From assembly GCF_032193765.1 (NCBI RefSeq), contig NZ_JAVBIJ010000001.1, positions 3,348,001-3,412,000 of the forward strand: 64,000 bases of DNA. The letters run 5' to 3'. The DNA is from Rhodoferax potami. Its GTDB lineage: Bacteria > Pseudomonadota > Gammaproteobacteria > Burkholderiales > Burkholderiaceae_C. The translations under genes and the position numbers were made by a program. A model generated the notes under the pieces. The model was not told where the DNA came from and made no database searches. It was given only the letters and a program-made list of their open reading frames with translations. Each line of letters opens with the position of its first letter. Positions within the stretch are counted from its first letter, which is position 1. This document shows positions 2,671 through 63,453 of the stretch, in pieces.

Positions 2671-2693
2671 GGGCGCCTTGGAGTTTGCTCACA

Positions 2694-2742
2694 TTTTAGG
2701 AGCTAACTGCGCACATTCCATGAGCGCCAGAGGCACTTTTTA
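2694..2742 (+). repeat. dispersed ~50-bp repeat, copy 1
   Basis: Contains AGCTAACTGCGCA, then ATGAGCGCCAGAG, the two conserved blocks shared by eight elements in this window. It sits between the copA stop codon and the ynfA start. Confidence 0.75.
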
Positions 2743-5845: not shown

Positions 5846-6281
5846 GTCAGCGGCGCTGTCCAGCCAACCCGTCAACATCGGCGAAGCTGCCCGCCAAAGC
5901 GGAGTGTCCGCCAAGATGCTGCGGCATTACGAGTCGCTGGGTCTGCTGGGCACCGTCACGCGCACCGACAGCGGCTACCGGCTCTACAGCCCGGCCGATG
6001 TGCACACCTTGCGCTTCATCAAGCGCTGCCGCGACCTGGGCTTTTCCATGGCCGAAATCGGGGAACTGGTGGGCCTGTGGCAAAACAAGCGCCGCGCCAG
6101 TGCCAACGTCAAGAAGATCGCCCAAAAGCACATGGACGAACTGAGCGAGCGCATCGCCGCCATGCAGGCCATGCAGCGCACTCTCTCCACCCTGCTGCAT
6201 GGCTGCCATGGTGACGACCGGCCCCAGTGCCCCATCCTCGACGATCTGTCGGGCGAGAGCCATCTGCTATCAAATCCATAG
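5829..6281 (+). CDS. cueR: MerR-family copper-responsive regulator CueR
   Basis: A 150-residue MerR-type activator. The winged helix-turn-helix is at about residues 14-80 (NIGEAARQSGVSAKMLRHYE) and a dimerisation helix follows. The metal-binding loop holds two cysteines in CHGDDRPQCPILDDL, the CxnC arrangement of CueR-like Cu(I)/Ag(I) sensors. The ATG at 5829 lies inside the end of copZ; an earlier ATG at 5802 would add nine residues. The last five residues (LLSNP) and the stop codon come from a dispersed repeat copy that begins around 6271, so the repeat seems to have replaced the original C-terminus. Confidence 0.93.
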   Translation: MPSKTKSAALSSQPVNIGEAARQSGVSAKMLRHYESLGLLGTVTRTDSGYRLYSPADVHTLRFIKRCRDLGFSMAEIGELVGLWQNKRRASANVKKIAQKHMDELSERIAAMQAMQRTLSTLLHGCHGDDRPQCPILDDLSGESHLLSNP

Positions 6282-6320
6282 CTACTTGCGCAGGTTTTAC
6301 GAGCGCTAGCGTGCAAAAAT
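6271..6320 (+). repeat. dispersed ~50-bp repeat, copy 2
   Basis: Shows TAGCTACTTGCGCA and ACGAGCGCTAG. Its left end supplies the cueR stop codon (TAG at 6279-6281). Confidence 0.85.
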
Positions 6321-6418
6321 GTCCATAAGTCGTGGCACCGCACCAGTGTGGTCCATAGCACCGACAGTGAGCGCACTCGCCGCTCCAATGAAGGCTTCCA
6401 CAACTTCTGGAGTGCAGC

Positions 6419-17735: not shown

Positions 17736-17811
17736 TCGACCGGGTGCAATGCCTTGGTCTACGGATTCTGGGCTACGTTCACCGTAGAAACTCCTGTTAA
17801 ATTTGCTCCTG

Positions 17812-17862
17812 ATTTGATAGCATCCTGCGCAGATTTCATGAGCGCTAGAACCCGATTTGGCT
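17812..17862 (+). repeat. dispersed ~50-bp repeat, copy 3
   Basis: Shows TAGCATCCTGCGCA and ATGAGCGCTAGAA followed by CCCGATTTGGCTC. Its right end meets the stop codon of the chemoreceptor gene on the minus strand. Confidence 0.85.
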
Positions 17863-33669: not shown

Positions 33670-34863
33670 ATGCACTCCAATGCCGCAACCGTCGCTCTCT
33701 CCGGCCCGATTCAGCCCCTGTGGCGTGACCGCCTCTCGTTGCTGCTGGAGTCCACCGGTGAAGGCATCTTCGGTATCGATATGGATGGCTGCTGCACCTT
33801 CATCAACCGCGCCGGTGCAGCCATGTTGGGCTACGAACCCCACGAAGTGCTGGGGGCCAACATGCACGAGCTGGCCCACCACAGCCATCCGGGTGGCGAA
33901 CACTACCCCGAACACACCTGCCCCATCTTCAACGCCTTTCGCAAGGCATTGCCCTGCCGGATAGACACCGAGCAGTTCTGGCGCCGCGATGGCTCAGCCT
34001 TTGCCGTGGAGTACTCGTCGTACCCGATCGTCGATAGCGGTGTGGTGCAAGGTGCGGTTGTCACCTTTGTAGACATCTCGGCCCGCCGTAACGCCGAAGA
34101 CGCTTTGCGACGCGCCCACACCGAGCTGGAGCAGCGGGTGGAGGAGCGCACCCTGGCACTCTCCGAAGCCCTGCAGCAGCTGCGCGAACTCACTGCCCAC
34201 AGCCACTCGGTGCGTGAAGAAGAGCGCACCCGCATTGCCCGTGAAGTGCATGACGAGCTGGGCAGCCTGCTGGTCGCCTTGAAGATGGATGTTGGCTGGC
34301 TCGAAAAGCGCTTAGGGGAGCAACCCGGCCGGGCGCCGGATGCTGCCCAAGCCATGCGCGAGCAAATGCAGCACAAATGCCGCAATATGAGCCAGCTGAT
34401 TGAAGCCGCGGTGGACAACGTCGGCCGCATCATCACCGACCTGCGCCCCAGCATCCTCGACCACCAGGGCCTGTGGGTCGCTCTCGACTGGCAGGCCCAT
34501 GAGTTTGTGCAGGCGGCAGAGCTGGGGCTGGACTGGTCCATGGACGTGAGTGCTGCGCAGCCTGTGCCCGATACCCACACCATCGCTATCTTCCGCATCT
34601 TTCAGGAAATGCTCAGCAACGTAGGCCGCCACGCACAAGCCAGTCACCTCACTATTGAAATCCGCGCCGATGCCAGTGATATCACTATCTCCGTCAAAGA
34701 CAACGGCCGGGGCGCCCCCCTGCAGGCCTTTGATGCGCCCGACGCCTACGGCATCATGGGCATGCGGGAGCGGGCAAGGCACTTGGGCGGAAGCCTGGAG
34801 ATTACAAGCCAAATCGGCCTCGGGTCCTCATTCAATCTGCGCGTGCAGCTACCAAAATCATAG
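33670..34863 (+). CDS. PAS-domain sensor histidine kinase (HisKA_3 type)
   Basis: A 397-residue kinase without clear membrane segments. An N-terminal PAS domain (about residues 18-135; GEGIFGIDMDGCCTFINRAGAAMLGY) is followed by a coiled coil and the phosphoacceptor helix EEERTRIAREVHDELGSLLVALK, with the His typical of NarX/NreB-type kinases. The ATPase domain has the N box EMLSNVGRHA and G box DNGRGAPL. It precedes its response regulator by two bases. Location upstream of the cyanate operon may mean it controls it, but this is inference. Confidence 0.92.
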   Translation: MHSNAATVALSGPIQPLWRDRLSLLLESTGEGIFGIDMDGCCTFINRAGAAMLGYEPHEVLGANMHELAHHSHPGGEHYPEHTCPIFNAFRKALPCRIDTEQFWRRDGSAFAVEYSSYPIVDSGVVQGAVVTFVDISARRNAEDALRRAHTELEQRVEERTLALSEALQQLRELTAHSHSVREEERTRIAREVHDELGSLLVALKMDVGWLEKRLGEQPGRAPDAAQAMREQMQHKCRNMSQLIEAAVDNVGRIITDLRPSILDHQGLWVALDWQAHEFVQAAELGLDWSMDVSAAQPVPDTHTIAIFRIFQEMLSNVGRHAQASHLTIEIRADASDITISVKDNGRGAPLQAFDAPDAYGIMGMRERARHLGGSLEITSQIGLGSSFNLRVQLPKS

Positions 34864-34865
34864 CA

Positions 34866-35537
34866 ATGCCAAGCTCCACCACCCACACACCCTACCGCAT
34901 CTTGATAGGTGACGACCACCGTATCGTGCGTGAAGGGCTCAAGCAAGTGCTGGCCGACGCGGCTGACCTGCACGTGGTGGCAGAGGCCGCCAGTGGCCCG
35001 GAGGTGTTGGACGCGGTGCAGGCTCTGGGCGGTACTGCAGGCCTGTCCGCCGTGTTGCTCGACATTGCCATGCCCGGGCGCGACGGGTTGGATGTGCTGC
35101 AAGCCCTCAAGGCCGCATGGCCCAAGCTGCCGGTGCTCATGCTCAGCACCTACCCCGAGAAGCAATACGCCGTACGCTGCATCAAACTGGGCGCGGCGGG
35201 CTATCTGAATAAGGGTGCAGACCCCGACGACATGATTGCCGCGGTGCGCAAGGCGGCCAGCGGCGGCGTCTATGTGTCTGCACAAGCGGCTGAGGCATTG
35301 GCCAGTGCGGTAGCCAATGCGGCCCATCAGGGTGCGGAGGCGCTCTCTCACCGCGAGCACCAGGTGTTCAGGCTGCTTACCGCCGGCAAAACCGTGGGCG
35401 AAATTGGTGCACAGCTGGGGCTTGCATCCAACACGGTCAGCACCTACCGGCAGCGCATCCTCGAAAAAACCGGCACCAAAAACGACGTGGAACTCGCGCT
35501 TTTCGCCCAACAACAGGTCAACAACGGGCATTTGTAG
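34866..35537 (+). CDS. LuxR/NarL-family response regulator
   Basis: A 223-residue two-domain regulator. The receiver domain has DDH at residues 16-18, the phosphorylated Asp in VLLDIAMPG, and a Lys near LNKG. The LuxR-type helix-turn-helix is at about 158-215 (LSHREHQVFRLLTAGKTVGEIG). It is the partner of the kinase just upstream. The cyanate operon begins 110 bp after its stop codon. Confidence 0.94.
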   Translation: MPSSTTHTPYRILIGDDHRIVREGLKQVLADAADLHVVAEAASGPEVLDAVQALGGTAGLSAVLLDIAMPGRDGLDVLQALKAAWPKLPVLMLSTYPEKQYAVRCIKLGAAGYLNKGADPDDMIAAVRKAASGGVYVSAQAAEALASAVANAAHQGAEALSHREHQVFRLLTAGKTVGEIGAQLGLASNTVSTYRQRILEKTGTKNDVELALFAQQQVNNGHL

Positions 35538-39757: not shown

Positions 39758-40858
39758 TTAAGCAGCAGCTTTCTGGCGGCGCGCACGCACAGCGGCCGCC
39801 AGTTGTTCCAGCACCGGCACGGTTTGCGCCCAGCTGATGCAGGCGTCGGTCACGCTCACGCCGTGCTGCAGCGGCTTGCCGTCCACGATGTCCTGGCGGC
39901 CCTCGTTGAGGTGGCTCTCGATCATCAGGCCGGTAATGCGCTCATCGCCAGCGGCAATCTGTGCTGCCACGTCTTGCGCCACCACGATCTGGCGGGCATG
40001 CTGCTTGCTGCTGTTGGCGTGGCTCACGTCAATCATCACCTGCTCGCGCAGGCCGGCGGCTTTGAGCAGCGCGCAAGCTGCGTCCACATCGGCGGCGGAG
40101 TAGTTGGGCGCCTTGCCGCCGCGCAAGATCACGTGGCAATCGTTGTTGCCGCGTGTCTCGAAGATGGCGGCCTGGCCCATCTTGGTCATGCCCATGAAAG
40201 CGTGCGCGCCTTGCGCGGCCTGAATCGCGTCGGTCGCTACCTTGATGCCGCCGTCCGTCCCGTTCTTGAAGCCCACGGGGCAGCTCAGGCCGCTGGCCAG
40301 CTGGCGGTGGCTCTGGCTCTCGGTGGTGCGCGCACCAATGGCACCCCAGCTCACCAGTTCGCTGATGAACTGCGGCGAGAGCAAATCCAAAAACTCGGTG
40401 GCTGCAGGCAAGCCGGTGTCCAGCACGTCCAGCAACAAGCGGCGCGCCATCTCCAGCCCTTGGTTGATGGCAAAGCTGCCGTCCAGGTGCGGGTCGTTGA
40501 TATAGCCCTTCCAGCCCACGGTGGTGCGCGGCTTTTCAAAGTACACGCGCATCACCACCAGCAGGTCGGCGCTCAGTGCATCCGCCTGCGCCTTGAGCAG
40601 GCGGGCGTATTCCATGGCCTGGCTGTGGTCGTGGATGGAGCAGGGCCCCACCACCACCACCAGCCGGTCGTCCTGCCCCTGCAGGATGCGAGAGATGGCC
40701 GCACGGCTGCTCTCCACCAGCGCCTCGGCCGCGGCCGGCACGGGCAGCTTTTCTTCCAGAAGCGCGGGGGTGATGAGCGGGCGCACCGCGCCGATGCGCA
40801 CATCGTCAATGCGGGTGGTGTCGTGGGTGGTCAGGGCGGCGATGGTGGAGGTGGTCAT
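39758..40858 (-). CDS. aroG: 3-deoxy-7-phosphoheptulonate synthase (class I, AroG-type)
   Basis: A 366-residue DAHP synthase, first enzyme of the shikimate pathway. Motifs: VVVGPCSIHD, RVYFEKPRTTVGWKGYINDP, GARTTESQSHRQLASG, NGTDGG, and DVSHANSSKQ. It is the E. coli AroF/G/H type, normally feedback-regulated by one aromatic amino acid; which one cannot be told. A dispersed repeat copy begins seven bases upstream of its ATG, in the position of the ribosome-binding site, and no purine-rich RBS is visible. Confidence 0.95.
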   Translation of the reverse strand: MTTSTIAALTTHDTTRIDDVRIGAVRPLITPALLEEKLPVPAAAEALVESSRAAISRILQGQDDRLVVVVGPCSIHDHSQAMEYARLLKAQADALSADLLVVMRVYFEKPRTTVGWKGYINDPHLDGSFAINQGLEMARRLLLDVLDTGLPAATEFLDLLSPQFISELVSWGAIGARTTESQSHRQLASGLSCPVGFKNGTDGGIKVATDAIQAAQGAHAFMGMTKMGQAAIFETRGNNDCHVILRGGKAPNYSAADVDAACALLKAAGLREQVMIDVSHANSSKQHARQIVVAQDVAAQIAAGDERITGLMIESHLNEGRQDIVDGKPLQHGVSVTDACISWAQTVPVLEQLAAAVRARRQKAAA

Positions 40859-40864
40859 ACTATG

Positions 40865-40918
40865 AATTTGATAGCTACTCGCGCAGGTAATACGAGCGCT
40901 AGAGGGTGATTTGGCTTG
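40865..40918 (+). repeat. dispersed ~50-bp repeat, copy 4 (left border of RM island)
   Basis: Shows TAGCTACTCGCGCA and ACGAGCGCTAGAG followed by GATTTGGCTT. It forms the aroG leader on the minus strand and the left border of the low-GC island. Confidence 0.88.
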
Positions 40919-41018: not shown

Positions 41019-42278
41019 ATGACAAGCCCAATCACCACCGAAGACAACTCCGCCGCCCTCCAATACTTGCAGGCGGCACGCAAATCCCACTCACAAGCTG
41101 ACCTAGCCAAGCATCTGAAATTTGGTGAAAGGCAGGTACGACGTTGGGAAAAGGGTGAACAACCAATACCGGCCCATGTAGCCGAAGAGCTTCAGCGCCT
41201 TCTCGACTTTGGGATTGACTCCAAGCCAACCAGTGACTTCACCTTTATCGATCTCTTTGCCGGTATCGGCGGGATCAGATTGGCTTTTGAAGCGATTGGT
41301 GGCGAGTGCGTCTTCACCAGCGAGTGGGATAGCTATGCGCAGAAGACCTACGCTACCAACTTCCCCAGTTCGCACGTCATCAACGGAGACATCACCCAGA
41401 TTGATGCGGAAGACATCCCGGACCATGACGTGCTTCTGGGCGGCTTCCCCTGCCAGCCCTTCTCTATCGCGGGTGTGTCAAAAAAGAATGCGCTTGGCCG
41501 TGCGCACGGCTTCGCTGATGAAACACAAGGCACGCTTTTCTTTGATGTGGCACGCATCATTGCGAAGAAGCGGCCCAAGGCGTTCATGCTCGAGAACGTC
41601 AAGAACCTGCAATCGCATGACAAAGGTCGCACCTTTGACGTGATCCATCGGACGCTTCGTGATGATCTTGGCTACAACGTTTTCTTCAAGGTGATTGATG
41701 GCGCTCACTTTGTGCCACAGCATCGCGAGCGGATCATCATTGTTGGCTTCAGGGACGATGTTGACTTTGATTGGGACAAAGTGAAATTGCCCGGAAAAGG
41801 CAACGTCACTCTTGGCGAGATTCTTCACAAACCCAAGCTCGAGGCAGCAGCGAAAGTCGATGGCAGCAATTACTTTGACTATGAGAACAAGAAGCTGCTG
41901 AGCAAGTACACGCTGACAGACAACTTGTGGACGTACCTGCAGAACTACAAGAAGAAACACCAAGCCGCTGGCAATGGATTTGGCTTTGGGATGGTCAACG
42001 AAGGAAGCGTCACTCGCACACTTTCTGCACGCTATTACAAGGACGGATCAGAAATTCTTGTGGATCAAGGTGATGACAAAAATCCTCGTCGCTTGACCCC
42101 AAGGGAATGCGCCCGATTGATGGGATTCCCTGACACTTTCAAGATTCCTGTGTCAGATACCCGCGCCTACAAGCAGTTCGGAAACTCCGTAGTGGTCCCA
42201 GTCATGGAGGCTGTTGCGAAGGCGATGCGACCACATATCTGCAGCCCAGCCAGTGCTGCAAAGGCAAAGAAGAAATAG
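41019..42278 (+). CDS. C5-cytosine DNA methyltransferase with N-terminal HTH
   Basis: A 419-residue m5C methyltransferase. Residues 10-65 form a helix-turn-helix ([23 protein letters not shown]) like that of M.SsoII, M.EcoRII and Dcm. The catalytic domain has motif [17 protein letters not shown], motif [11 protein letters not shown] with the nucleophilic Cys, motif VI ENVKNL, motif [15 protein letters not shown] and motif [11 protein letters not shown]. By family and partner (MvaI/BcnI-type nuclease, Vsr) the likely target is CCWGG or CCNGG. The HTH probably represses its own promoter at the palindrome upstream. Confidence 0.92.
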
Positions 42279-42299
42279 TCACTTTTCAAGGAGTCCAAC

Positions 42300-42575
42300 A
42301 TGCAGACAACATCGCGCATTCCATCACTGCCAAATAAGTCTTACTTTGCAATGAACAGGTGGTTCCAGCAGATGCAACTGGCGGGCCTGCTCTATCACCC
42401 TGATGAACGCGCTGAAGACATCGTTGACATTGAAACGGATACGCAAGTGTTTGACCCAGCTGAATGTGAACTACTTGATGCGCTGATCGACCAAATGTTT
42501 GAGGTCCATGGAGATAAGGTTTACGACGTTTGCATAAAGCACGTTCACAAGGCCATGGGCATTAAGCCAGAGTGA
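42300..42575 (+). CDS. 91-aa unknown protein in RM operon
   Basis: A small acidic protein starting MQTTSRIPSLPNKSYFAMNRW, not recognised. It has no cysteine pair, membrane segment or obvious HTH; the second half (FDPAECELLDALIDQMFEVHG) looks helical. It lies 21 bp after the methyltransferase gene (with an AAGGAG-type RBS) and overlaps the GTG start of vsr (GTGA), so it is translated with the system. It could be a partner of Vsr or of the nuclease, or a controller-like element. Confidence 0.7.
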   Translation: MQTTSRIPSLPNKSYFAMNRWFQQMQLAGLLYHPDERAEDIVDIETDTQVFDPAECELLDALIDQMFEVHGDKVYDVCIKHVHKAMGIKPE

Positions 42576-43000
42576 TTGATATTGTTGACCCTGCTACCCG
42601 CAGTCGAATGATGGCGGGTATCAAGTGCAAGGACACCAAGCCGGAGGTTTTCTTGCGAAAAGCCTTGCATGCACAAGGCCTGCGTTACAGGCTTGGCGGC
42701 TGCGGACTACCTGGCAAGCCTGATCTAGTCTTCCCATCAAGAAAAGCGGTTGTATTCGTGCACGGGTGCTTTTGGCATCGCTACGAATGCAGGTACTTCA
42801 AATGGCCTCAAAGCAATGGCGCTTTTTGGAAAACCAAACTCGACAGAAATGTAAAGCGCGACATGTGCGTGAAAGCAGCATTGAAACAGCTTGGATGGTT
42901 AGTCTTTACTGTCTGGGAGTGCGAGCTACGAGAAACAAGGTTTCAGCTTCCCAATGAATCTATAGAGCAACTGCTTCTCGAATTGAAGTCGATTAAATGA
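42572..43000 (+). CDS. vsr: very short patch repair endonuclease Vsr
   Basis: A 142-residue Vsr enzyme, nicking 5' of the T in T:G mismatches that arise by deamination of m5C. Segments: DPATRSRMMAGIKCKDTKPE, GKPDLVFPSRKAVVFVHGCFWHRYEC with the catalytic Asp and His residues and the zinc ligands, and LGWLVFTVWECEL. It starts with GTG at 42572 overlapping the previous stop. Presence of Vsr fits a C5 methyltransferase on CCWGG-type sites. Confidence 0.94.
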   Translation: MIDIVDPATRSRMMAGIKCKDTKPEVFLRKALHAQGLRYRLGGCGLPGKPDLVFPSRKAVVFVHGCFWHRYECRYFKWPQSNGAFWKTKLDRNVKRDMCVKAALKQLGWLVFTVWECELRETRFQLPNESIEQLLLELKSIK

Positions 43001-43042
43001 GACGAAGGATGGTTTTAAGATCGCCATAAAAAGGGGGAAGAA

Positions 43043-44335
43043 ATGGCGATTGAGACTGTCGAAAAATTGCTTCTGCGTTTTCGTGCACTGGGAGCCGAGC
43101 GAGTTTTTTTTAAGAAACTGGCTGAGAACGACAACAGAAAGCAACAGATCTATCTGGGTAGTAGTTTTGCCGCGCTGAGTTTTTTCCCTTATGGGGAAAT
43201 TGTTGCCTACCCGGATCTGAAGGTACCCAATTTCAAAGCCCCTTTGGATTTTTTTTGGTTTGACGAAAGCACGGTAGAGAAGGCGCGCGGTGCTCAATTA
43301 ATTCTTTATCCAGCATATCCAGAGGTTCGCCTTTCAGGTTTTTTGACTGGCTGCCGAATAGCGCCAAGTGAACATATGCGCGAAGTACCCGAAGAATGTC
43401 GCCGAGGGTTCGATGGGCGGGTATTGATTTTTGGAACAACGGCAGATGGAAGGACGTTTGCCTATTTGGCCGCCGAGAACACACATCTTTCCAAAGAGCT
43501 ACGCGCCCATCCCAGTGCATCCGATGAGCTACTGATCGAACTAACACTCCCAGTTGGCTCTCAAGAAAACAAGCAAAAACTTCTGGACGCTCTGCGGGAG
43601 ATACATCAGACAGGGCCGCACAGCTCCAAACGTATGTACTCGGATGGGACAGTTAAACCTTATACAGCGCGCAATGGTGGCGGCTATACCTTGGAAGCGC
43701 TGCTTGGCATTGCTCCCAATTCTCGAGCAGAGCCCGATTACATGGGCTGGGAAATTAAGGCCTACACGAAATCCCGTGTGACACTGATGACGCCCGAACC
43801 GAATGGAGGGTTTTACGGACGAGAAGGTGTCCGCGCTTTTGTTGAAAAGTATGGACATTTGTCAGCTGCTGGGGATAAATACTTCACCGGCGCGCATAAG
43901 GTTGATAAACCAACAGAACTGGCTGGAACCACTTTGAAGTTGAGGGGATACAACCCTGATTTACCAGACAAGATGGCGGTAGACGGTGCAATCTATCTTG
44001 TGGACGCACTAGGCGAAGAAATCGCAGTGTGGGATTTTTCGAGCCTACTCACACATTGGAATAGAAAACATGCGTTTGCAGCCTATGTCCCTACTGAGAG
44101 GTATAGCGCTACTAATGAGTACCACTACAAAAGTCCGATATTGATGGGCGAGCAAACGGATTTCAGTAAATATCTGCAAGCCTTGGCGAGGGGGATGATT
44201 GTTTTTGATCCAGGCTCAAAGATCTATGGTCCCGATTCCGAAAAAGCTGGGACAGTAAAAGCCAGAAGCCAATTCAGAATTACGGTTAAGGATTTAAGCA
44301 AGCTGTATACCCACTTTTCTGCTGAAGATCTGTAG
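43043..44335 (+). CDS. MvaI/BcnI-family type II restriction endonuclease
   Basis: A 430-residue endonuclease. The C-terminal half has the MvaI/BcnI core: YTARNGGGYTLEALLGI, NSRAEPDYMGWEIKAYTKS with the D...E-x-K catalytic residues, and later VWDFSSLLTHWNRKHAFAAYV. MvaI cuts CCWGG and BcnI CCSGG as monomers. The N-terminal about 190 residues are an extra domain absent from the small family members. Base composition is clearly less GC-rich than in the surrounding genes, which suggests transfer. It is the last gene of the RM operon, 42 bp after vsr. Confidence 0.85.
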   Translation: MAIETVEKLLLRFRALGAERVFFKKLAENDNRKQQIYLGSSFAALSFFPYGEIVAYPDLKVPNFKAPLDFFWFDESTVEKARGAQLILYPAYPEVRLSGFLTGCRIAPSEHMREVPEECRRGFDGRVLIFGTTADGRTFAYLAAENTHLSKELRAHPSASDELLIELTLPVGSQENKQKLLDALREIHQTGPHSSKRMYSDGTVKPYTARNGGGYTLEALLGIAPNSRAEPDYMGWEIKAYTKSRVTLMTPEPNGGFYGREGVRAFVEKYGHLSAAGDKYFTGAHKVDKPTELAGTTLKLRGYNPDLPDKMAVDGAIYLVDALGEEIAVWDFSSLLTHWNRKHAFAAYVPTERYSATNEYHYKSPILMGEQTDFSKYLQALARGMIVFDPGSKIYGPDSEKAGTVKARSQFRITVKDLSKLYTHFSAEDL

Positions 44336-44369
44336 AGAATATGTAACGTGAAATACATCAAATGCTTCC

Positions 44370-44422
44370 ATTTTGATAGCTGCTTGCGCAATATCCACGA
44401 GCGCTAGAGCCCGATTTGTCTC
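44370..44422 (+). repeat. dispersed ~50-bp repeat, copy 5 (right border of RM island)
   Basis: Shows TAGCTGCTTGCGCA and ACGAGCGCTAGAG followed by CCCGATTTGTCTC. Same orientation as copy 4, 3.5 kb away. Confidence 0.9.
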
Positions 44423-44842
44423 TTAAACCAACCCATGCCGCTCCATCACCTCCCGCCAAGCCGCCAGCTTGCGCTCAAAGCTCCAGCTGGCGTTGGCCGG
44501 GCTGGTGCTGGGTAGTTGGTAAACGGGCACGCCCAGGGTGCGGGTGTGGCGGGCGTGTTTGAAGCTCTCGCCGCCGTTGTGGCCGATGGCCTGTAGCTGC
44601 GGCAGGTGCAGTGCGGCAGTGTCGTTGGGCACCGCGTTGCGGATGGCACTGGCCAGGCTGCCTTCGCGCTCGCAGCGGGCGTACACATCCCACACGCCTG
44701 AGCCGCGCTCCAGCAGCCATGCACTATGGATTTCATAGCTGCTGGTACGTATTCCATGTGGGCCAAAGCCCCAAAAGATATGCGCTTGCATTCCAGAGCC
44801 AGTGCCGCCTACCTGACCTGAAACGCTGTAGGCGCGCTGCAT
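44423..44842 (-). pseudogene. truncated duplicate of DNA glycosylase gene
   Basis: The minus strand encodes 139 residues whose last about 95 (from WLLERGSGVWDVYARCERE to the C-terminal ERHGLV) are nearly identical to the intact glycosylase at 45607-46110. Similarity stops near 44780, just past the dispersed repeat inside the gene; the N-terminal catalytic part (GSFPG region) is missing and replaced by unrelated sequence. The two copies are direct repeats of about 350 bp, 1184 bp apart. Probably non-functional. Confidence 0.85.
44728..44780 (+). repeat. dispersed ~50-bp repeat, copy 6 (degenerate)
   Basis: TAGCTGCTGGTACGTATTCCATG is a decayed form of the first block, and the second block is changed to TGGGCCAAAG. 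It is the duplicate of copy 7 inside the truncated glycosylase gene. Confidence 0.65.
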
Positions 44843-44940
44843 GGTTCGTTTGGACTATTGATAATCACGGATCCACGGCCATAGCATGCTCACGCTCAAC
44901 ATGTTTTTCAAGTCACTCAACATAGGGAGATATTTGAAGT

Positions 44941-45593
44941 ATGCAAAACGCAAAAAAACTGATGTCCGTAGTTGCAACAGCGCTACTTTTTGCAGCACCC
45001 GTAGCTTCACATGCTGTGGACCTGGACTTCAATGGAGCTGTTAGTAACGGCGTAAGGCTGTCCCAAAACTATGGCGACGGACCAACGTGGGACGTCACCT
45101 ATCGGGACTTAACGACTCCCTCCTTCTCACTCTTGGGTTGGACCACGGGTTACCAAGGAACGCGGGATGTACTCTATTCAGGTGTCACCGACGCCGGCTC
45201 GCATGGTCGCATCACTATTGCCCCCTATGCGGGCTACCAAGTTACGCTCAACTCTTTTGACTTAACTCCATATCTGACGGGTGCCCCACGCACTTTTTCC
45301 TCGCAATGGGCGGTCTACTCTGTAGGGGGGGGGGCCTCATTCGCATCCGTCGGCCCTTTGGCTACTTTGACTACGTATAGCCCAGCGTTGTCGTCAACCA
45401 CCGGTGTCATCATTGAGTGAAGGCCAGTGCTTACTATGTGGGTATCGACAACATTCGTTTCTCAGTGACTGCTGTCCCTGAACCCGAAACCTATGCGTTG
45501 CTGTTGGCGGGCCTAGGCGTGGTTGGGGCTATAGCGCGCCGCAAAAAGCCCGCCGCTCAAGCAATCGCTCTGTGGCGAGGCACGCGGGGGTAG
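44941..45593 (+). pseudogene. PEP-CTERM sorted exoprotein, frameshifted
   Basis: From ATG 44941 a 159-residue exported protein (signal peptide ending SHAVDLD) runs to a TGA at 45418-45420. The coding sense continues in another frame from 45423 as ASAYYVGIDNIRFSVTAVPE and then a PEP-CTERM signal: VPEPETYALLLAGLGVVG, then ARRKK, ending at 45593. One missing G (TGG to TG at about 45419) would fuse the two parts. PEP-CTERM proteins are processed by exosortase and secreted with exopolysaccharide. A run of ten G lies at 45325-45334 but the frame break is not there. Confidence 0.82.
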
Positions 45594-45606
45594 TTAAAGA
45601 GCAACG

Positions 45607-46110
45607 TCAAACCAACCCATGCCTCTCCATCACCTCCCGCCAAGCCGCCAGCTTGCGCTCAAAGCTCCAGCTGGCGTTGGCCGGGCTGGTGCTGGGGAGT
45701 TGATAGACGGGCACGCCCAAGGTGCGGGTGTGGCGGGCGTGTTTGAAGCTCTCGCCGCCGTTGTGGGCGATGGCCTGTAGCTGCGGCAGGTGCAGCGCGG
45801 CGATGTCGTTGGGCACCGCGTTGCGGATGGCACTGTCCAGGCTGCCTTCGCGCTCGCAGCGGGCGTACACATCCCACACGCCCAGGCCGCGCCCCAGCAG
45901 CCATTTGCTACGATTTTCATAGCTGCTAGCGCATATTCCATGAGCGCCAGAGGGCCAAATGGCTTGCAATATCTTCCAGAACTGGTTTTGCGGGTGGCCG
46001 TAATACTCTTGCGCCTGCAATGAGCGCACACCGGGAAAGCTGCCCAGTATCAGCACCTTGGTGGCGGGTGACACCAGCGGCGGCAGGCCGGTGAGCAGAG
46101 TGGTCGTCAT
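45607..46110 (-). CDS. DNA-deoxyinosine glycosylase (uracil-DNA glycosylase superfamily)
   Basis: A 167-residue enzyme of the mismatch/hypoxanthine DNA glycosylase branch. The catalytic-site region LILGSFPGVRSLQAQEYYGHPQNQFW is present (GSFPG motif and the YYGHPQN stretch), and the C-terminal VPVYQLPSTSPAN loop matches the substrate-intercalation loop of the superfamily. Between ILQAIWP and KWLLGRG lies a dispersed repeat copy (45913-45965) that reads through in frame as SGAHGICASSYENR, replacing or extending the loop normally found there. Whether the enzyme is active is unknown. A second truncated copy is at 44423. Confidence 0.87.
   Translation of the reverse strand: MTTTLLTGLPPLVSPATKVLILGSFPGVRSLQAQEYYGHPQNQFWKILQAIWPSGAHGICASSYENRSKWLLGRGLGVWDVYARCEREGSLDSAIRNAVPNDIAALHLPQLQAIAHNGGESFKHARHTRTLGVPVYQLPSTSPANASWSFERKLAAWREVMERHGLV
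45913..45965 (+). repeat. dispersed ~50-bp repeat, copy 7, in frame inside a gene
   Basis: Shows TAGCTGCTAGCGCA and ATGAGCGCCAGAG followed by AAATGGCTT. On the minus strand it is translated without a stop codon as part of the glycosylase. Confidence 0.88.
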
Positions 46111-62214: not shown

Positions 62215-63393
62215 ATGCTTTACTACCCGCGTACGCCCTTGGCATCCAGCTTGGCCGATGCTTTGCAGGGTAAAGACGTCTTTAGCGATGCGCCCAACGG
62301 ACTGTTTCTGGCAGCGCCCCGCCGCACAGGCAAATCCACCTTCCTGCAAGCCGACCTCATGCCCGAGTTGCAGCGCCGCCAGGTGGTGGTGGTGTACGTG
62401 GACCTGTGGGCGGACCAGAAGCGTGACCCCGGCAGCCTCATTGCCGAGGCGGTGGGCCAAGCTTTGCTAAAGCAGTTGGGCGTGGTGGCCAAGACTGCCA
62501 AGTTGGCGGGGCTGGACAGCATCAGCGTCGGGGGTATCAAAATCGACACCTCAAAAATCGGCAAGGTCGACGGCAGCACCCTCACCGATGCACTGCGCGC
62601 CCTGTCCGAAGCTAGCAAAGCCCCCGTCGCGCTGGTGATAGACGAGGCCCAGCATGCACTCACCAGCGAGGCGGGTGAAACCGCGATGGCGGCACTCAAG
62701 TCCGCCCGTGACCAACTCAACCGCCCCGGCGAGGTGCGGCTCATGCTGGTGATGTCAGGCTCCGATCGCGACAAGCTCCTGCGGCTGGTCAACACCAATG
62801 CGGCCCCTTTCTACGGCTCCCAAATCCACCGCATGCCCGAGCTAGGGGCTGACTTCATTGCCCACATCGCGCAACTCATAGTCCGCCAGCGTGCCGACCT
62901 TGCCCCAGTCAACGAAGCTACCTTGAGCGAAGCCTTTACGCGTTTCGGCCAGCGTCCCCAGTTTTTTATGGAGGCCCTCGGGCAGGTGCTCAGCCCTTTG
63001 GCCACCAACACCGGCAGATTTGAAGACGCCATGCTGGATAAAGCCCTGCAGAAACAAGACGCTGACGAGTCGCAGATGGAAAGCGACTTCACCGCCCTGC
63101 GTCCGCTGGAGCAAGCCGTGCTCTGGCGCATGCTGGAACTGGGCCAACGCTTTCGCCCGTATGACGCCGACGCGCTTCAGTTCTACAACGAGAAAACGGG
63201 TGAAAAAGTCACCGTGGCCAAGGCGCAAAAAGCCTTGGAAGGTTTGCGCGCCCACCAGCCCAGCCTGATCTGGAAATCCGCCCGCAGCGAATACGCGGTC
63301 GAGGACGCCGCCATGCTCCGCTGGTACACCCAGCGCGTCGCAGCGGGCTCATGGCCGCCAGCAAGTCCGCAACTTGATTGGGTAGATGAGTGA
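62215..63393 (+). CDS. AAA ATPase (ATPase_2/Orc-like) inside a type I RM locus
   Basis: A 392-residue protein. Walker A is APRRTGKSTF (about residues 34-43) and Walker B VALVIDEAQHAL (about 138-149). The C-terminal part (about residues 300-375: FRPYDADALQFYNEKTGEK to YAVEDAAMLRWYTQR) looks like a winged-helix domain, as in Orc/Cdc6-type and archaeal ATPase_2 proteins. Function is not recognised. It lies 78 bp after hsdR with its own AT-rich leader and is followed by a dispersed repeat before hsdM, so it is probably a recent insertion or an accessory module. Confidence 0.75.
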   Translation: MLYYPRTPLASSLADALQGKDVFSDAPNGLFLAAPRRTGKSTFLQADLMPELQRRQVVVVYVDLWADQKRDPGSLIAEAVGQALLKQLGVVAKTAKLAGLDSISVGGIKIDTSKIGKVDGSTLTDALRALSEASKAPVALVIDEAQHALTSEAGETAMAALKSARDQLNRPGEVRLMLVMSGSDRDKLLRLVNTNAAPFYGSQIHRMPELGADFIAHIAQLIVRQRADLAPVNEATLSEAFTRFGQRPQFFMEALGQVLSPLATNTGRFEDAMLDKALQKQDADESQMESDFTALRPLEQAVLWRMLELGQRFRPYDADALQFYNEKTGEKVTVAKAQKALEGLRAHQPSLIWKSARSEYAVEDAAMLRWYTQRVAAGSWPPASPQLDWVDE

Positions 63394-63402
63394 ATTGCTA
63401 CT

Positions 63403-63453
63403 AAATTCATAGCTGCTTGCGCACATTCCACGTGCGCTAGAGCCATATTTCAT
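63403..63453 (+). repeat. dispersed ~50-bp repeat, copy 8
   Basis: Shows TAGCTGCTTGCGCA and ACGTGCGCTAGAG. It lies 20 bp before the hsdM ATG, in its leader. Confidence 0.85.

Follow-up and report, generated by a model that had tools for sequence, protein, structure and literature searches.

A dispersed repeat in the 64,000-nucleotide stretch of DNA analysed here (the window) was reported in a preliminary description to lie within the coding sequence of a DNA glycosylase gene, with the reading frame kept on both sides. This arrangement raises the question of whether repeat DNA has become part of an enzyme and, if so, whether it was added to the protein or took the place of native residues. The open reading frame (ORF) at 45607-46110 matches the TIGR04274 profile along its full length (positions 1 to 150 of 150) with an E-value of 1.1e-43 and 148.9 bits, above the curated cut-off of 80, and by this measure its predicted product is a full-length TIGR04274 DNA-deoxyinosine glycosylase. 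An AlphaFold model of this protein (mean pLDDT 90.9) yields PDB 2l3f, a putative uracil-DNA glycosylase, as the best Foldseek match (E = 1.3e-14).

The glycosylase frame is indeed open on either side of the repeat (...ILQAIWP-SGAHGICASSYENRSKW-LLGRG...). A profile prepared from six window copies, with the in-gene copy left out, detects the latter at 45904-45958 with an E-value of 5.8e-14 (nhmmer), and a genome scan with a model likewise built without it gives 8.0e-16. When a matrix derived from 29 copies of the same genome, again excluding the in-gene copy, is used for scoring, this copy receives 74.8, a value bracketed by those of the seven other full copies in the window (47.3-83.9), and a degenerate copy in a truncated gene receives 36.5. 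Nine decoy matrices applied to 568,411 bases (the window plus 80 orthologue loci) return no match scoring at least 20, versus 41 for the real matrix, whose training set included five of the window copies. Third-position GC is 0.43 in the 21-codon repeat segment versus 0.85 elsewhere in the gene. These findings confirm that dispersed-repeat DNA sits in frame within the glycosylase gene. The extent originally assigned to the element (45913-45965) is revised to about 45901-45962, and one S had been left out of its peptide.

In the AlphaFold model, residues 51-60 form the block of lowest pLDDT (67) and are located between helices 44-51 and 64-73. The in-gene repeat is therefore predicted to encode what is now a loop between two helices, preceding helix 64-73. 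It also supplies the glycosylase residues SY..R, which are likewise present in repeat-free relatives.

A matrix search locates nine repeat places in the window (Table 1). The other copies had been described as intergenic, and this holds in that the seven other full copies have no coding frame spanning them. However, the copy at 40853-40914 touches a start codon, and the degenerate copy is inside a truncated gene copy. The first of these ends on the start codon of an ORF judged by eye to be aroF-like, and it may form the leader of that ORF.

Table 1. Coordinates of the glycosylase gene, its truncated copy and the repeat copies in the 64,000-nucleotide window.
Feature	Position	Strand	Remarks
DNA-deoxyinosine (hypoxanthine-DNA) glycosylase gene, holds repeat	45607..46110	-	167 aa; TIGR04274, PF03167
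In-gene copy of dispersed repeat	45901..45962	+	minus-strand reading is SGAHGICASSYENRSKW
Repeat copy, no spanning coding frame	2681..2742	+	score 72.0
Repeat copy, no spanning coding frame	6260..6321	+	score 47.3
Repeat copy, no spanning coding frame	17799..17860	+	score 74.2
Repeat copy, no spanning coding frame	34809..34870	-	score 54.2
Repeat copy at start codon of ORF 39758-40858 (-), aroF-like by eye	40853..40914	+	score 65.6
Repeat copy between REase gene and truncated glycosylase copy	44358..44419	+	score 76.7
Degenerate copy of in-gene repeat, inside truncated glycosylase copy	44717..44778	+	score 36.5; nhmmer E 0.0019
Repeat copy, no spanning coding frame	63391..63452	+	score 83.9
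Truncated second glycosylase copy (3' part)	44423..44775	-	322/351 identities with full gene

The repeat is approximately 57-60 bp in length (62 model columns, flanks included), and at least 150 copies are present in the 4.0 Mb Rhodoferax-group genome, the weakest among the matches listed having an E-value of 7.9e-8. An alignment of 62 copies, taken from seven genomes, needs no gaps in its 62 columns, and the copies carry two hairpins, in columns 7-23 and 26-50. Given this structure, which was specified by hand, the proposed pairs are standard in 87.0% of cells among the 62 copies, versus 18.0-51.6% when the partners are slid. There is little covariation: 6 of 500 shuffles equal the score, a +3 slide surpasses it (0.104 versus 0.096), and three covariation measures are near chance (reached by 57-277 of 500 shuffles). 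Columns 30 and 46 form A-U instead of C-G in five of six Curvibacter copies, and RNAalifold analysis of the first 18 copies gives a 4-bp stem lacking two-sided changes. The GC content is about 47% in 29 own-genome copies and 60% in 29 Xenophilus copies.

A search of Rfam 15 with both strands of window positions 34000-64000 produced no match at E <= 1, which speaks against a known RNA family for the repeat in the 30 kb searched. No target-site duplication was evident at the repeat sites. The only candidate for a RAYT partner is one weak Y1_Tnp match (G000:C1:2402826-2403086; 28.4 bits versus a cut-off of 23), located about 13 kb from the nearest repeat among the 150 copies listed. At one locus of a relative (L027, G034:C2, positions 1495-1550), the repeat seems to give a downstream ORF its start codon and the stretch MSTRRRFLSQ, which we take to be twin-arginine-like; this ORF has no family match.

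The glycosylase is not the only protein gene that carries the repeat. The 150 listed copies were subjected to a coding test that asks for an ORF open for at least 60 nucleotides on each side and, in that one frame, a codon score above zero for the two flanks. Among these matches, 29 of 150 copies lie in frames that are coding-like on both sides, and 23 of the 29 use only two frames (14 in R1 and 9 in F1). The other four frames account for six copies: two in R0, the glycosylase reading frame, and four in F2, F0 and R2 together, which may include chance cases. Frame R2 is open in none of the other 121 listed copies. Family and PDB searches identify among the hosts PurL, MetG, Tex, KdtA (for which the best NCBIfam match is below its cut-off and the Pfam kdotransferase domain is above), PepN, ThiL, Maf, RfbD, GluQRS, HpnE, GDPD and two outer-membrane efflux proteins. 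Alignment to relatives in the PDB shows the repeat site to be longer by a net 20 residues in GDPD (PDB 2otd), by about 12 in ThiL and by about 8 in PurL. Maf, RfbD and PepN show almost no gain, and these three were set aside as evidence for insertion; they are also the lowest-scoring in-frame copies (RfbD 34.4, PepN 40.1 and Maf 49.2).

Two further loci in relatives appear to carry the repeat in coding sequence. In L025 (G060:C324, 368-2242), which encodes an SbmA/BacA-like ABC transporter, it lies in frame after one of the two parts, membrane and ATPase, and before the other. Two repeat peptides, each in a different frame, seem to be present in one ORF of L059 (1184-2842), the second recognized by eye; this ORF resembles by eye a Y-family polymerase accessory protein ('ImuB-like') and has no Pfam or NCBIfam match.

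Occupied and empty versions of four host genes were compared within one GTDB genus. At the GDPD site, 12 of 30 loci are occupied (10 by a matrix match at the site; the other two, of which one is decayed, by peptide), 16 are empty and 2 were unread; the loop is 54-56 residues when occupied versus 41-50 when empty, most commonly 42. For KdtA, 19 of 25 loci are occupied, with 3 empty and another 3 unread; loops with the repeat are 44-52 residues and the empty forms are 29 (L416), 40 and 45. The apparent gain of 15 residues in KdtA is therefore one that, in these alignments, a single empty form (L416) provides, because the other two match or nearly match the occupied lengths. In Tex, 16 of 25 loci are occupied, 8 are empty and 1 was unread; the corresponding loop is 59-70 residues when occupied versus 57-62 when empty. 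For HpnE, with 21 of 30 loci occupied (one barely, with a score of 3.4), 9 empty and none unread, the loop is 38 residues versus 34-38, a difference of 0 to +4. Judged by the lengths, occupancy has two outcomes: a length gain, which is clear in GDPD, and a near-neutral replacement, as judged for HpnE and the glycosylase.

An extra 12-17 residues unique to this glycosylase had been expected, and such a simple insertion is ruled out by repeat-free orthologues of the same length at this site. For example, Variovorax orthologues lacking the repeat have a peptide of equal length there (QAVWPDHPLPTGADSYAKKKAWLL), and repeat-negative genes from 20 genomes of 16 other genera, hand-picked and in some cases chosen for being long, have a stretch of 40-45 residues versus 43 in the window. 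Same-length peptides without repeat DNA had been named beforehand as grounds for abandoning an insertion here; the repeat origin of the DNA stands nonetheless. With repeat-free loops of nearly equal length, the event in the glycosylase is best read from these alignments as a replacement in which about 20 codons were exchanged and the length hardly changed. One longer form was seen, solely in Curvibacter CHRR-16, whose glycosylase has 12 additional amino acids: the repeat peptide comes after WPDTVPAGFYDKSA, a sequence similar to the native loop, and the full repeat end is kept in the DNA. In this one genome, the gene looks like an untrimmed insertion in which the extra 12 residues would be the old native loop.

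We consider it likely that this two-hairpin Comamonadaceae repeat enters tolerant loops of genes and that the product ends at, or is trimmed to, the native length. A copy would settle in a gene when it is free of stops in the host frame and falls within a tolerant loop. For the glycosylase, the route may have been that the element entered the loop, and that the native loop became redundant and was then lost, leaving a net length change of zero. The settling of the repeat in genes, as distinct from this route, is supported by the DNA match, the open frame, the occupied and empty orthologues, the correlation between gene copy and genomic repeats (see below) and the low third-position GC. Insertion followed by trimming is weakened by the near absence of length change at both the glycosylase and HpnE, and by the restriction of the longer glycosylase to Curvibacter CHRR-16. 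The general explanation is further weakened because the KdtA gain depends on one form, covariation in the repeat is weak, and the distribution among relatives is less than fully consistent.

A second reading, which we regard as a tentative competitor, is that a repeat copy overwrote the native segment in one step through homeologous recombination or template switching at short chance similarity, leaving the length constant. In the glycosylase itself, such a length-neutral replacement is nearly as likely as insertion and trimming. It would account directly for the near-zero change at the glycosylase and the change of 0 to +4 at HpnE, and the repeat-like stretches of RfbD and Maf align gapless or nearly so to their PDB relatives. 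In addition, gene copies are best fitted by the repeat matrix of their own group in six of seven Rhodoferax glycosylases tried (L070 being the exception), in the one from Curvibacter and in both from the Xenophilus group. Polaromonas argues against this pattern: of nine glycosylases tried, three were read; two of these favour the matrix of their own group, by less than 2 bits, and the third does not. The clear length gain in GDPD and the longer Curvibacter glycosylase also speak against replacement in one step.

The probable entry of the repeat into tolerant loops can be examined further through its distribution in the glycosylases of relatives. A same-genus sample contained a glycosylase match in 20 of 61 genomes, and 19 orthologues, including that of the window, were aligned. 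Eleven of these (L001-L009, L011 and L012) carry the repeat at the same codons (nhmmer E <= 1.4e-5), and L010 carries it weakly (E = 0.00085). No repeat is among the nhmmer matches listed for L013, and the more distant L014-L019 (40-51% identity) are without the repeat and four residues shorter at the site. In a set of 81 named sequences, made up of the window and the best 80 of 263 relatives, 37 glycosylases score above 0 for the repeat. They come from the Rhodoferax/Curvibacter group, from Polaromonas (19 of 24), from two records of Xenophilus E41, from one Ramlibacter bin and from a small number of others. A synonymous null with 400 encodings each equalled the observed score in 0 of 400 for 31 of the 37 positives and in 1-15 for the other six. 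This null was given no weight because the site was chosen as the best-scoring one and because 0 of 400 was likewise obtained, at a different place, for three negatives (L080, L081 and L085).

Among 26 genomes scanned with the repeat model at E <= 1e-6, matches occur in all 12 with a positive glycosylase (1 to at least 150 each, where in some, such as Curvibacter (L198), the gene copy itself may be a match) and in none of the 14 with a negative one (about 87 Mb). Another set of 26 genomes, some of them shared with the first, was searched at E <= 1e-5, and the glycosylase was read in 24. Repeat matches are present in 19 of the 20 with a positive glycosylase, four of which (G354, G193, G124 and G318) have one each; G220 has a positive gene copy and zero matches. 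The four negative glycosylases come from two genomes with one match each and two with none. Because such genomes with a gene copy and 0-1 matches exist, either the gene copy can outlast the repeat family or divergent copies escape the Rhodoferax-trained model. A glycosylase tree with the loop masked permits an ancestral repeat that was lost in Variovorax, with the direction left unfixed. This tree, G220 and the four genomes with one match each are the points in the distribution that weaken the explanation we favour. Three Variovorax glycosylases (L104, L108 and L121) keep AGCTATCAAAAGCGTAGC codons in genomes that have no repeat match at E <= 1e-6, and these codons are possible relics.

The same distribution bears on the idea that the glycosylase segment is the source from which the repeat family descends, which we judge to be improbable. 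The gene copy is old, extends across several genera and is present in genomes with few or no other repeat matches, and the SY..R codons supplied by the repeat are conserved in the gene family. In contrast, the segment has a low third-position GC within a GC-rich gene, the 20 genomes of 16 other genera are negative, and gene copies resemble the local repeat variant in most cases tried. Moreover, the intergenic consensus ends in GGCCGATTTGG, whereas the window gene has GGCCAAATGG there. The weakest reading, that ordinary coding sequence converged on the repeat by chance or at the codon level, is very hard to credit: although the conservation of SY..R in repeat-free orthologues means that part of the match is protein constraint, and although RfbD, PepN and Maf combine the three lowest in-frame scores with almost no insertion, the in-gene copy reaches 8.0e-16 in the genome scan, the 14 repeat-negative genomes hold no match at E <= 1e-6, and the nine decoy matrices find nothing.

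The surroundings of the glycosylase gene also hold a truncated second copy. The ORF at 44423-44842 matches TIGR04274 with an E-value of 6.3e-18 and 65.3 bits, below the cut-off of 80. The similarity of this copy to the full gene stops at the outer edge of the in-gene repeat, and because the duplication ends there, recombination at the repeat is suggested. Window positions 44423-45608, comprising the truncated copy and a PEP-CTERM-type gene, are absent from the relative L002, in which a single glycosylase copy is joined directly to the same REase side; in G007 and in G053, by contrast, a part copy is found close to the full gene. These arrangements indicate that the part copy and the PEP-CTERM-type gene were either gained in the line of the window or lost in L002. 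The PEP-CTERM-type gene is split over two frames (44941-45420 and 45417-45593), and a run of ten G is found at 45325-45334. Relatives L002, L003, L005 and L006 carry a repeat copy just downstream of the glycosylase, at the place that matches 44358-44419. A restriction-modification cluster (41019-44335) adjoins the glycosylase and includes a C5 cytosine methyltransferase (dcm family), a Vsr endonuclease and an MvaI/BcnI-family endonuclease.

Several known systems resemble the Comamonadaceae repeat. Rickettsia palindromic elements (RPEs) are described in the relevant part of PMC10969869 as small palindromic repeats of about 150 bp that occur between genes and in frame in unrelated protein genes; RPE-4 and RPE-6 are counted among REPs in a section of PMC3733652, and RPE length may thus not be uniform. 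The likeness consists of in-frame copies in unrelated protein genes, here 29 of the 150 listed together with occupied and empty orthologues. The differences, drawn from these published descriptions, are host and length (Rickettsia and about 150 bp, versus Comamonadaceae and 57-60 bp) and the replacement of native residues at two sites with little or no length gain. GTAG/CGTC REPs, as characterized in PMC3733652, are hairpin repeats of 20-40 bp that are mostly intergenic, with some copies in genes, including those for DNA repair and tRNA synthetases. REPs of this type are further marked by an unpaired GTAG or CGTC tag at one end and by a RAYT transposase gene that the repeat flanks. The repeat described here is likewise a short hairpin element, mostly intergenic and in part within genes, but is longer, has two hairpins (columns 7-50) and has no demonstrated transposase partner. 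A search of the main text of PMC3733652 for six Comamonadaceae genus names found none.

BRE, according to the portion of PMC3110155 that presents it, is a dispersed repeat of Betaproteobacteria, including Rhodoferax and Polaromonas, with some copies wholly in coding sequences. This makes it comparable to the present repeat, but its full length is 75-91 bp, its GC content is 69% in Bordetella, it is sometimes tandem, and R. ferrireducens has 4 copies, versus 57-60 bp, about 47% GC and at least 150 copies here. Judged by that description, BRE was rejected as the identity of our repeat on the basis of length, GC and copy number. Our literature searches found no description of this repeat, and a search with short repeat strings returned no title on Comamonadaceae or repeats among the matching papers. 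RPEs were named at the outset as the precedent; Rickettsia is not alone, given the in-gene short repeats reported in PMC3733652 and PMC3110155. On these comparisons, we regard the repeat as the same kind of phenomenon as RPEs, intragenic REPs and BRE, with the apparent novelty residing in its host, length, two-hairpin form and near-neutral replacements.

The proposal that the element spreads into protein genes with the frame kept is partly supported, by the 29 of 150 listed copies in coding-like frames and by occupied and empty orthologues, with the exception of the insertion envisaged for the glycosylase. The repeat family might perhaps edit proteins both through inserted residues and through loops overwritten at native length, and be recycled as protein in many genes of a bacterial family, possibly being kept like local repeats by recombination; we offer this only as a speculative view. 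Rickettsia, an obligate intracellular group, provides the best-known case of small repeats spreading in frame into protein genes, and a comparable pattern is now seen in a Rhodoferax-group genome. Because many relatives have been sequenced, named strains among them, occupied and empty versions of one enzyme can be directly compared, and how non-coding repeats turn into protein sequence becomes a testable question. The findings also carry a warning: when a peptide such as PLAPVEYAQAAPKTIA is met in a Comamonadaceae protein, it derives from the repeat and is no sign of homology.
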